64,000 nucleotides of DNA from Henriciella algicola (GTDB lineage Bacteria; Pseudomonadota; Alphaproteobacteria; Caulobacterales; Hyphomonadaceae), in NCBI RefSeq assembly GCF_003576245.1, contig NZ_QWGA01000003.1, positions 806,001 to 870,000 of the forward strand. Reading direction: 5' to 3'. Position 1 is the stretch's first letter; the number at the start of each line of letters is the position of its first letter. The notes under the pieces were generated by a model. It was not told where the DNA came from, did no database searches, and saw only the letters and a list, made by a program, of their open reading frames with translations. Shown one piece after another: positions 6,692-22,410 of the stretch. A program made the translations under genes and the position numbers.

Positions 6692-8095
6692 ATGTCAGAC
6701 ACTTACGACGTAGTCATCATCGGCGGTGGCCCGGGCGGCTATAATTGCGCGATCCGCTGCGGCCAGCTTGGCCTGAAGACCGCCATCATCGACAAGCGCG
6801 GCGTGCTTGGCGGCACCTGCCTGAATGTCGGCTGCATCCCCTCGAAGGCCCTGCTGCACGGCTCTGAGCTGTTTGCAGCCGCCAAGAACGACTTTGCAGG
6901 TCTCGGCATCAAGATGAGCGGGCTCGAGCTCGACCTTGATCAGATGATGAGCCAGAAGACCGACGCAGTGAACGGCCTCACCCAGGGCATCGAGTTCCTG
7001 ATGAAGAAGAACAAGGTCGACTACGTCAAAGGCTTTGGCCGCATCAAGGAAAAGGGCGTTGTCGAGGTCGACGCCGAGGATGGCGAGCAAAAGACGCTGA
7101 CCACGAAGAACATCGTGATCGCGACCGGCTCTGTGCCCTCCTCCCTGCCGAACATCGAGATCGACGAAGAGCGGGTCGTCACCAATGAAGGCGCGATCGC
7201 CCTGAAAGAAGTGCCGGAGAAACTGATCGTGATCGGTGCTGGCATTATCGGGCTGGAGCTTGGCTCCGTCTGGTCACGCCTTGGCGCCAGCGTCACCGTC
7301 GTTGAGTATCTCGACCGCATCATGCCGGGCGCCGACGACGAAATCGCCAAGGAAGCCCAGCGCACCTTCAAGAAGCAGGGTCTCGAGTTCCGCCTCGGCC
7401 AGAAGGTCACCGGCGTTGAGCGTATCGACGGTCATGTGAAACTCTTCATGGAGCCTGCCGCAGGCGGCGATCAGGAAACCCTCGAAGCCAATGCGATCAT
7501 CGTCGCTGTTGGCCGCCGTCCCTACACTGAAGGCCTTGGCCTCGAAGCTGTGGGCGGCAAGACCGACAAGCGCGGCGTCATCGAAACGACTGACCACTTC
7601 AAGGTCACTGACGGCGTCTGGGCGATCGGCGACTGCATTCACGGCCCGATGCTGGCCCACAAGGCCGAAGATGACGGCGCTGCGGTCGCAGAGCTCATCG
7701 CGGGCAAGGCAGGCCATGTCGACTATGACCTCGTCCCGAGCGTCGTTTACACCAATCCGGAAATCGCTTGGGTCGGCAAGACCGAAGCCCAGCTCAAAGA
7801 GGCCGGCATCGAGTACAAGAAGGGCAAATTCCCCTTCCAGGCCAACTCACGTGCCCGCACCAATCATGAGACAACCGGCTTTGTGAAGATCCTGGCCGAC
7901 GCCAAGACGGACCGAATTCTCGGCGCGCACATGATGGGTGTCGGTGTCGGTGAGATGATCCACGAGATCTGTATCGCCATGGAATTCGGCGCCGCCTCCG
8001 AAGACGTCGCCCGCACCTGCCACGCCCACCCGACCATGTCCGAAGCCGTCCGCCAGGCCGCCATGGGCGTCGAAGGCTGGACGATGCAGATGTAG
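6692..8095 (+). CDS. lpdA: Dihydrolipoyl dehydrogenase (E3)
   Basis: FAD enzyme that reoxidises dihydrolipoamide in the pyruvate, 2-oxoglutarate or branched-chain dehydrogenase complexes, or in the glycine cleavage system. The 467-aa length is normal. FAD motif GGGPGG is at residues 11-16, redox disulfide C43/C48 is in GGTCLNVGCIPSKALL, the second nucleotide motif is GAGIIGLELGS, and the C-terminal HAHPTMSE carries the catalytic His/Glu pair that acts across the dimer. No E1/E2 gene is adjacent, so the partner complex cannot be told from this window. A hairpin terminator follows at 8157-8195. Confidence 0.96.
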   Translation: MSDTYDVVIIGGGPGGYNCAIRCGQLGLKTAIIDKRGVLGGTCLNVGCIPSKALLHGSELFAAAKNDFAGLGIKMSGLELDLDQMMSQKTDAVNGLTQGIEFLMKKNKVDYVKGFGRIKEKGVVEVDAEDGEQKTLTTKNIVIATGSVPSSLPNIEIDEERVVTNEGAIALKEVPEKLIVIGAGIIGLELGSVWSRLGASVTVVEYLDRIMPGADDEIAKEAQRTFKKQGLEFRLGQKVTGVERIDGHVKLFMEPAAGGDQETLEANAIIVAVGRRPYTEGLGLEAVGGKTDKRGVIETTDHFKVTDGVWAIGDCIHGPMLAHKAEDDGAAVAELIAGKAGHVDYDLVPSVVYTNPEIAWVGKTEAQLKEAGIEYKKGKFPFQANSRARTNHETTGFVKILADAKTDRILGAHMMGVGVGEMIHEICIAMEFGAASEDVARTCHAHPTMSEAVRQAAMGVEGWTMQM

Positions 8096-8156
8096 GTTTC
8101 TACGCCCAGCATGGTGAGCGAAGTCGAACCATGCCGTTACAAGGCGCACCCAGATC

Positions 8157-8195
8157 AGCCCGCGCGGTTCGACTTCGTCACCGTGCGGGCTTTTT
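8157..8195 (+). terminator. Intrinsic terminator of lpdA
   Basis: A 12-bp stem (AGCCCGCGCGGT paired with ACCGTGCGGGCT, one G-U) with an 11-nt loop, followed directly by TTTTTC. The loop contains TCGACTTCG, similar to the core of the repeat family described at 8211 and 22297. A related palindrome, GCATGGT...ACCATGC, sits just upstream at 8109-8134. Confidence 0.85.
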
Positions 8196-8210: not shown

Positions 8211-8602
8211 GCTTCATCCTTCGACAGGCTCAGGATGAGGTGGATTGGCTTGGCGGGTGATAGAGATGAGTGACGTTGCGATCTGGATTTACATCCTCGA
8301 GTGCTCGAATGGCTCATTCTATACCGGCACTTATCGGGGCAGGGACATCGGTACGCGCGTTGGCGAGCACAATTCACGAAAATATGCGAACGCTTACACG
8401 GGTCGATATCTCCCGGTCCGCCTAGTCTGGTGCACAACGTGCGAGACCATCAACGAAGCCGTTGCTTTTGAGCGCCAGATCAAGGGCTGGTCGAGAGCCA
8501 AGAAGGCGGCCCTGATAAGTGGTGACTATGACGCGCTGCCCGGTCTTTCCCGCAATCGGCAACCAAGAGATACCTCATCCTGAGCCTGTCGAAGGATGAA
8601 GC
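8211..8602 (+). mobile_element. GIY-YIG gene bounded by perfect 31-bp inverted repeats
   Basis: Bases 8211-8241 and 8572-8602 are exact reverse complements over 31 bp. Each arm is itself a REP-like hairpin (TCATCCT...AGGATGA, with TTCGACAGGCTC between). The only gene inside, a GIY-YIG nuclease, starts 24 bp after the left arm, and its TGA stop lies inside the right arm. No target-site duplication is visible outside. A relative of the repeat occurs at 22297-22321. The mobile nature is inferred from this architecture. Confidence 0.55.
8266..8583 (+). CDS. GIY-YIG nuclease (UPF0213-like)
   Basis: Single-domain nuclease of 105 aa from the ATG at 8266. The diagnostic segment is WIYILECSNGSFYTGTYRG, with the two catalytic tyrosines (IYI and YTG) and an Arg/His helix (RVGEHNSRKY). 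ERQIKGWSRAKKAALI is the conserved C-terminal part with the metal-ligand Glu. Such solo proteins are common in Alphaproteobacteria and their substrates are mostly unknown. The gene is boxed by perfect inverted repeats, and its last codons and stop are supplied by the right repeat. An upstream TTG at 8245 would add seven residues. Confidence 0.85.
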   Translation: MSDVAIWIYILECSNGSFYTGTYRGRDIGTRVGEHNSRKYANAYTGRYLPVRLVWCTTCETINEAVAFERQIKGWSRAKKAALISGDYDALPGLSRNRQPRDTSS

Positions 8603-9724: not shown

Positions 9725-11181
9725 TTCTTCTTCCCCCCACCAAGGCCCGGAGGAAGCTGGCCGCCGCCGAGACCGGGAAGACCGCCGGGCATGCCTGCAC
9801 CTTGGCCCATCTTGGCGATGTCTTTCGGGCTGACGCCTGCGCCGCCAAGCGCGTTCATCATGCCCTTCATGCCGCCCTTCGACATCTTCTTCATCATGTC
9901 GGCCATCTGGCGGTGCATCTTCAGCACCTTGTTGACGTCCGACACTTCGACGCCGGCACCCGCAGCGACACGCTTGCGGCGGGACGCGTTGAGCAGCGCT
10001 GGCTTCTCGCGCTCTTTCCGCGTCATGGAGGAGATGATCGCTTCCTGACGCTTGATGACATTGTCGTCGACATTGGCCGCGGCCATCGCCTGCTTGGCCT
10101 TCTTGGCACCCGGCAGCATGCCCATGATGCCGCCAAGACCGCCCATTTTCTGCATCTGCTTCAGCTGCTCGGCGAGGTCATTGAGGTCGAACTCACCCTT
10201 GCGCATCCGCTTGGCCATGCGCTCGGCCTTTTCCTGGTCGAGCTGGTCGCCGGCGCGCTCAACGAGGGAGACGATGTCACCCTGGCCGAGGATGCGGCCC
10301 GCGACGCGCTTGGCATCGAAGGCATCGAGGCCATCGAGCTTTTCGCCCGTACCAAGGAATTTGATCGGAAGGCCCGTCACCGCGCGCATGGAGAGCGCGG
10401 CGCCGCCGCGGCCATCACCGTCCATACGGGTCAGCACAAGACCGGTGAGCGGCAGGCGCTCATGGAAGCGGCGAGCCGTTTCGACGGCGTCCTGACCGGT
10501 CAGGGCGTCAGCAACAAGGAGAGTTTCCTTTGGCTGCGCGATCTTTGCGATCTCGGCCGCCTCAGCCATCATCTGCTCATCGATGGAGGTCCGGCCTGCC
10601 GTATCGAGGAATACAACGTCATGGCCGCCAAGCTTGGCCGCCTGCAAGGCGCGCCGGGCAATCTCTGCCGGCATCTGGCCCTGAACGATCGGAAGCGAAG
10701 TGACATTCGCGCCAAGCTGGTCCGCCAGAACAGCAAGCTGCTCCATGGCCGCAGGACGGCGCACGTCGAGCGAGGCGAGCAGGACTTTTTTCTTGTCACG
10801 CTCTGAAAGGCGCTTGGCGATCTTCGCGGTCGTCGTCGTCTTACCAGAGCCCTGAAGGCCCGCCATCATGATGACAGATGGTGGATTGTCGACGCGAAGG
10901 CGGGTCTCGGCATCTTCGCCGCCCAGCATTTCGACAAGACCGTCATGGACGATCTTGATGACCTGCTGACCCGGCTTCACCGAACGGATGACTTCCTCGC
11001 CAACCGCGCGTTCTTTGACCTTGCCGATGAAGTCCTTGACCACTGGAAGCGCGACGTCAGCCTCCAGCAGGGCAACGCGGATTTCCCGCAGCGCAGCGGA
11101 CACGTCCTTCTCGGACAGCGCACCGCGCCCCGTAAGTCCGTCAAATATACCGCCTAGGCGGTCTGTCAGCGCGTCAAACAT
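9721..11181 (-). CDS. ffh: Signal recognition particle protein Ffh
   Basis: GTPase of the bacterial SRP that binds 4.5S RNA and hydrophobic signal sequences and delivers ribosomes to FtsY. The protein has 486 aa. The N domain is residues 1-90; the G domain has GLQGSGKTTTTAKIA (P-loop, about 109-123), DTAGR (about 192) and TRMDGDGRGGAALS. The C-terminal M domain is Met-rich and ends in Gly/Pro/Lys repeats, which is normal. The ATG at 11181 has GGGAG upstream. It is the first gene of an ffh-chorismate mutase-rpsP group. Confidence 0.97.
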   Translation of the reverse strand: MFDALTDRLGGIFDGLTGRGALSEKDVSAALREIRVALLEADVALPVVKDFIGKVKERAVGEEVIRSVKPGQQVIKIVHDGLVEMLGGEDAETRLRVDNPPSVIMMAGLQGSGKTTTTAKIAKRLSERDKKKVLLASLDVRRPAAMEQLAVLADQLGANVTSLPIVQGQMPAEIARRALQAAKLGGHDVVFLDTAGRTSIDEQMMAEAAEIAKIAQPKETLLVADALTGQDAVETARRFHERLPLTGLVLTRMDGDGRGGAALSMRAVTGLPIKFLGTGEKLDGLDAFDAKRVAGRILGQGDIVSLVERAGDQLDQEKAERMAKRMRKGEFDLNDLAEQLKQMQKMGGLGGIMGMLPGAKKAKQAMAAANVDDNVIKRQEAIISSMTRKEREKPALLNASRRKRVAAGAGVEVSDVNKVLKMHRQMADMMKKMSKGGMKGMMNALGGAGVSPKDIAKMGQGAGMPGGLPGLGGGQLPPGLGGGKKK

Positions 11182-22260: not shown

Positions 22261-22287
22261 ATTAAATATGGACGATTCACTCCGGAG

Positions 22288-22410
22288 ATACCTGCGTCCT
22301 TCGACTTCGCTCAGGATGAGGGGCAGGTATCCATGGTGAGACCTAGAACCGGAAGCTAACGGTTCAGACGAAGCACCCTGGACCCCTGCCCGCGCAGGGG
22401 TTGTCGGGAG
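22288..22410. repeat. Composite palindromic element, copy 2, with a nested repeat in palindrome 1
   Basis: Palindrome 1 arms ACCTGCG (22290-22296) and GGCAGGT (22322-22328) are separated by a 25-bp copy of the GIY-YIG-flanking repeat type (22297-22321, TCCTTCGACTTCGCTCAGG...). In copies 1 and 3 the same arms are separated by only two bases. Palindrome 2 is CCCCTGC-ccgc-GCAGGGG (22383-22400), preceded by CTGGA. CAGACGAAGCA lies between the palindromes, as in copy 3. Confidence 0.75.

Follow-up and report, generated by a model that had tools for sequence, protein, structure and literature searches.

Architecture of the nuclease unit

The window analysed here, the whole stretch of 64,000 nucleotides (64 kb) from Henriciella algicola, contains on its plus strand a unit of 392 bp (8211-8602) in which a small solo GIY-YIG nuclease gene is bounded by two inverted copies of a repeat resembling repetitive extragenic palindromes (REPs). 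The left arm (8211-8241, plus strand), a repeat of subtype A1, and the right arm (8572-8602, minus strand), which is the left arm inverted, are complementary at 31 of 31 positions and separated by 330 nt; the perfect 31-bp inverted arms of the preliminary description were thereby confirmed. The gene (8266-8583, plus strand) encodes 105 aa and matches PF01541 with an E value of 1.9e-13. Its open reading frame ends with TSS-stop inside the right arm: the letters 8572-8583 form the last three codons, ACC TCA TCC, and the stop TGA (8581-8583), in agreement with the earlier claim of a stop codon within the arm. As a slight correction, the span 8211-8602 comprises the whole arm-gene-arm unit, and the gene alone begins at 8266.

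Each arm had also been said to fold as its own hairpin. A 7-bp stem (8214-8220/8232-8238 in the left arm) with an 11-nt loop, reading GAGCCTGTCGA on the minus strand, was indeed found, but the single-arm hairpins are weak, with DNA folding energies of -4.4 and -4.5 kcal/mol and with 11 and 12 of 200 shuffles folding equally well. The 406-nt strand with the arms paired folds far better than its shuffles (z of -8.2, DNA parameters). This folding, together with the position of the left arm before the start codon and of the stop codon in the right arm, would fit RNA control elements through which the enzyme limits its own expression, with the arms pairing within the transcript or being cleaved there by the nuclease. 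Since single copies and inverted pairs of the repeats are also scattered over the genome, about equally on both strands, the existence of the family cannot be explained mainly by a role in the transcript, and this reading is considered highly unlikely.

Domain match, alignment and structure model characterise the encoded protein as a small solo GIY-YIG nuclease with intact catalytic residues. The GIY-YIG domain scored above its curated cut-off, the residues Y9, Y19, G21, R31, H35, E69, K73 and W75 are invariant in the alignment of the focal nuclease clade, and the AlphaFold2 model (pLDDT of 87.7) has the UPF0213 fold, matching the nuclear magnetic resonance structures of UPF0213. The UPF0213/YhbQ-like GIY-YIG proteins of the PDB entries 1zg2 and 1ywl are of the same sequence type (E values of 3e-14 and 2e-11) and fold; unlike the repeat setting described here, these entries give no function and no link to repeats. 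In NCBIfam, no family is assigned to the protein. A reading as part of a defence system was rejected, since no PADLOC match was obtained. The gene is under purifying selection, with a ratio of nonsynonymous to synonymous substitution rates (dN/dS) of about 0.07 compared to genome G010 (dS saturated) and of about 0.07-0.16 where it was computable.

Flanking repeats within and beyond the genus

At up to three mismatches, the core of the arm occurs in 31 copies in the focal genome, whereas a reversed control pattern gave 0; several of these copies form inverted pairs spaced by about 55-60 bp. Besides UvrC, six solo GIY-YIG genes are encoded in this genome, four of them lying between inverted repeats that belong to four different families. 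Another of the six (L006) contains an internal stop, has no inverted flanks and represents a decaying copy. A REP-associated tyrosine transposase (RAYT) as the mover of the repeats was rejected, as no Y1 (HUH) transposase was found in the focal genome (0 matches to PF01797). Among the 27 genomes of the genus sample (records labelled Henriciella), a Y1 transposase was above threshold in only three and was found neither in the focal genome nor in 23 of the other 26. Because no Y1 transposase was found in the focal genome, the GIY-YIG protein between the repeats is the natural candidate to act on them.

In the genus sample, 61 solo GIY-YIG genes were scored, and flanks counted as inverted repeats when they reached an ungapped score of 15 or more within 450 bp. 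Inverted REP-like flanks were found at 33 of the 61 genes compared to 0 of 15 GIY-YIG controls, which were taken from UvrC (eight genes) and from a GIY-YIG family of about 175 aa (seven genes) and never exceeded a flank score of 11. Since a null of mismatched pairs is inflated for the genus by repeats common to the genomes, such control genes and the far flanks of loci were used instead. The family of about 175 aa, a weak GIY-YIG family present in seven genus genomes (L100-L106), has no flanking repeats. For relatives of the focal clade in named genomes (79 loci from Alphaproteobacteria, Bacteroidetes, Thiobacillus and one Chloroflexi metagenome-assembled genome), inverted flanks were determined at 58 of 79 loci compared to 1 of 74 far flanks of the same loci, and for other nuclease clades in a Pseudomonadota-wide sample the corresponding values were 66 of 88 and 0 of 83. 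The nearest named record with the focal unit is a contig labelled Henriciella sp. NORP34. The organisation claimed before, a single gene with flanking inverted REPs as in RAYTs but with a GIY-YIG enzyme, is thus supported; it was found again throughout the genus and in different phyla, each nuclease clade having repeats of its own.

The unit lies between lpdA, which ends at 8095, and rpsP (9189-8698, minus strand), a region that gathers other elements in several species. It could be argued that the arms are passive neighbours, i.e. common intergenic REP-like repeats which happen to bound small genes, perhaps as terminators, and the arms could indeed end transcripts. In view of the values near zero for the far flanks and the UvrC controls, and of the clade-specific matching of nucleases and repeats (see below), such a coincidence is exceedingly improbable. 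The layout is also far above chance in the window itself: a 225-bp pseudo-gene slid along the 64 kb gave only the focal site and one marginal site, the focal site alone scoring high.

Clade-specific repeats and hairpin structure

Each nuclease clade has its own repeat, and the focal clade pairs with hairpins that comprise a GAGC..GTCGA loop and covarying stems. On the nuclease tree, eight repeat classes require 7 changes, which is the minimum, compared to at least 18 in 300 shuffles, and the subtypes A1, A2 and B within the focal clade require 2 changes, again the minimum, compared to at least 4 in shuffles. The independence behind these figures is overstated, since the arms were sorted into classes by eye and the genes include orthologs that share one site. 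In an unselected test across phyla, 56 of 71 focal-clade loci had arms with a TCGAA core compared to 2 of the 86 other loci. Of these 86 non-focal loci, 51 carried a [CT]GTC tag in their arms.

A set of 134 distinct repeats with short loops was collected from 51 loci. Their four loop-proximal stem pairs are Watson-Crick pairs in 88-93% of cases, and stem pairs 2-4 occur as three or four pair types each. As the loop letters formed the search pattern for these repeats, they are informative on stem covariation only, and the constancy of the core is taken from the TCGAA test. The covariation of the stem pairs shows that the hairpin is preserved while the letters of the stem change.

In most of the non-focal clades, the arms are CGTC REPs, for example CGTCATTCCCGCGAAGGCGGGAATCCAG. 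These form one of the two large REP superfamilies in the 2013 survey of palindromic repeats by Di Nocera and colleagues, where they are defined by a CGTC, TGTC or CCTC tag followed by a stem starting with AT and are described as apparently without a dedicated transposase (PMC3733652). The focal arm (aCCTC-ATCCT..AGGAT) resembles them in carrying the CCTC variant of the tag and an AT-starting stem; it differs in its loop of 11 nt compared to 4-5 nt and in its tail GAAGC, with no CCA tail. A superfamily left without an enzyme in that survey thus repeatedly bounds solo GIY-YIG genes, with a repeat code that is readable for each clade. This gives named enzyme-substrate pairs to test, and the target of an enzyme could become predictable from its own flanks.

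Copy number, empty sites and loss

Genomes with a focal-clade nuclease contain a median of 37 copies of A1, A2 and B together, compared to 1.5 in genomes without it (Mann-Whitney p of 0.001), and each subtype is more numerous where its own nuclease is present (p of 0.009, 0.003 and 0.0009). The matching subtypes account for 76% of the copies in nuclease-bearing genomes compared to 44% on permutation of the labels; all of these statistics ignore kinship. An equal abundance of the repeats in genomes without the gene, which had been named beforehand as an outcome contradicting the proposal, was looked for and not found, with five exceptions discussed below.

At the focal site, the unit is present in G000 and at the orthologous site of G010. 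In G011 and G021 the site is clean; G024 carries one A1 repeat there, G003 carries two, and other inserts occupy it in G016, G002 and G005. The place of the nuclease unit between lpdA and rpsP is filled in G016 (L107) by another palindromic element (CCCCCTTCTCCC..GGGAGAGGGG), and a similar sequence occurs in G004 (L116). The coding sequences of G000 and G010 share 71% identity and their synonymous sites are saturated, yet the arms match at 62 of 62 positions and are therefore not drifting at the neutral rate. Sister units with A2 repeats are located at several loci in G016, G003, G010 and G001. Between the units of G016 and G003 (L072/L090), the homology runs from arm to arm and then stops (1449-1875, with the gene at 1495-1854), and the site of the G016 unit (L072) measures about 60 bp in G011 and G002 compared to about 510 bp, which identifies empty sites. 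The presence of two dispersed inverted pairs varies among five species. The search for the unit at other sites and for empty alleles, as suggested in the preliminary description, accordingly gave an empty focal site in other species and sister units at several loci; a gene and arms always at the same locus, with the arms drifting neutrally, were looked for and not found.

Nuclease and repeat as a cognate pair

Altogether, nuclease and repeat form a cognate pair with the layout of a REPtron but without its enzyme. That the nuclease acts on its own flanking repeat family is regarded as very likely, while the chances that it also drives the spread of the repeats are seen as even. The gene and its two arms are fairly probably a small selfish or domesticated nuclease-repeat element, with the GIY-YIG protein as the dedicated enzyme of the flanking repeats. 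Nucleases of this kind are probably the partner enzymes of a large repeat class that was once described as having no dedicated enzyme. More tentatively, and with some doubt, the CGTC-type REPs as a superfamily and the TGAG..TCGAA hairpins could have solo GIY-YIG nucleases as their dedicated mobilisers. These would then form a second, non-HUH kind of system alongside the RAYTs, each clade moving the repeat that belongs to it and, in some cases, its entire unit.

In the favoured mechanism, the GIY-YIG protein would recognise the hairpin by its loop, whose letters GAG(C)...(G)TCGA are nearly constant, on a freely covarying stem. Recognition and nicking would most likely take place while the DNA is single-stranded (on the lagging strand, during repair or as incoming DNA), and the nick followed by host repair or recombination could lead to repeats, inverted pairs resembling REP doublets forming hairpins (REPINs) and occasionally whole units being copied or kept. 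GIY-YIG enzymes, unlike RAYTs, are not expected to form a covalent DNA-tyrosine link, and the joining would therefore be left to host enzymes. Of the original proposal that the nuclease mobilises this repeat family, the cognate association and the clade-specific repeats stand, while cutting and moving are what we infer.

Several observations weigh against this explanation. The matching of clades and repeats is partly due to shared ancestry, and the p values overstate independence. The genomes G002, G004, G005, G011 and G024 contain 20-46 copies, with no focal-clade nuclease detected in them; a recent loss would explain these five cases. Furthermore, the unit is present in G000 and in the more distant G010 and not in nearer species, which can be explained by loss as well as by movement. 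Inverted pairs in G002 (L338) and G005 (L347) were lost wholly or by half, with microhomology deletion scars at short identities, and no target-site duplication was seen. Loss in places is certain, gain is likely, and active transposition is possible.

Another possible role of the same cognate pair would be the control of DNA uptake or recombination. The nuclease would then cleave incoming or replicating DNA in its single-stranded state wherever a repeat occurs, and the repeats would be retained for tuning gene exchange rather than being spread by the nuclease. The closest precedent are the Ssn nucleases of Neisseria, which reportedly are site-specific, cleave only single-stranded DNA at NTS, a dispersed repeat, and are said to have homologs with specificities of their own. 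Enzyme superfamily, size and the partnership with a repeat agree with what is reported for Ssn, the gene is under the purifying selection described above, and the repeat losses are ordinary deletions. The inverted pairs, however, are regularly spaced (55 or 64-65 bp, with 13 pairs in G008) and, like the arm-to-arm homology of units at different loci, resemble products of copying, so that a role in uptake is considered rather unlikely.

As in the Ssn/NTS system, the cognate pair described here combines a small solo GIY-YIG protein with a many-copy repeat, in this case 31 copies and also on both sides of the gene. Differences are the URI/UPF0213-like type of the focal clade with its loop code GAGC..GTCGA and the arm-gene-arm unit with a repeat-encoded stop codon, which is not known to be described for Ssn. 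If both should be the same thing, the biochemistry of Ssn would be tied to the REPs of many bacteria.

The RAYT/REPtron systems with their REPs and REPINs (PMC2817692, PMC3116915) share with the present unit the single gene between inverted copies of a dispersed hairpin repeat, the inverted repeat pairs and the one repeat type per enzyme clade. In contrast to these systems, the focal enzyme is a GIY-YIG protein (PF01541) and not an HUH Y1 enzyme, and the focal arms contain no GTAG tetranucleotide. The pair would represent a possible second way, besides RAYTs, for short hairpin repeats to spread. No paper linking GIY-YIG to REPs was found in the library searched, and neither the connection with CGTC REPs nor the code of the individual clades nor the arm-gene-arm unit was seen stated before.

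Further repeats in the window and in related genomes

In G011 (C56, about 9975-10445; L134), two A2 arms lie about 430 bp apart; a nuclease remnant was sought between them, and no GIY-YIG reading frame was found. REPIN-like elements in G008 and G014 (L137-L151) showed conserved sequence outside the arms (CTTGAAGCCTC..GAGGGCCT), and the copied REPIN-like unit may be longer than two hairpins.

The relative of the arm reported at 22297 inside another palindrome is real. It is a dispersed repeat of the TTCG-loop subtype A2 (22297-22319, plus strand), and the D-type palindrome whose loop contains it spans 22287-22331 (GATACCTGC..GCAGGTATC, usual loop of 4 nt). A2 or B repeats are nested in the same manner in L027 near 2313 (minus strand) and 534. 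These cases possibly result from insertion into a hairpin loop; as for a general preference for insertion into other hairpins, the few nested cases were not clearly above the shuffled null. Just left of the nuclease unit, a facing, REPIN-like pair of subtype B repeats was identified (8111-8190, cores 8113-8130 and 8166-8182), which is of the type that flanks another nuclease gene (L004) in the same genome.
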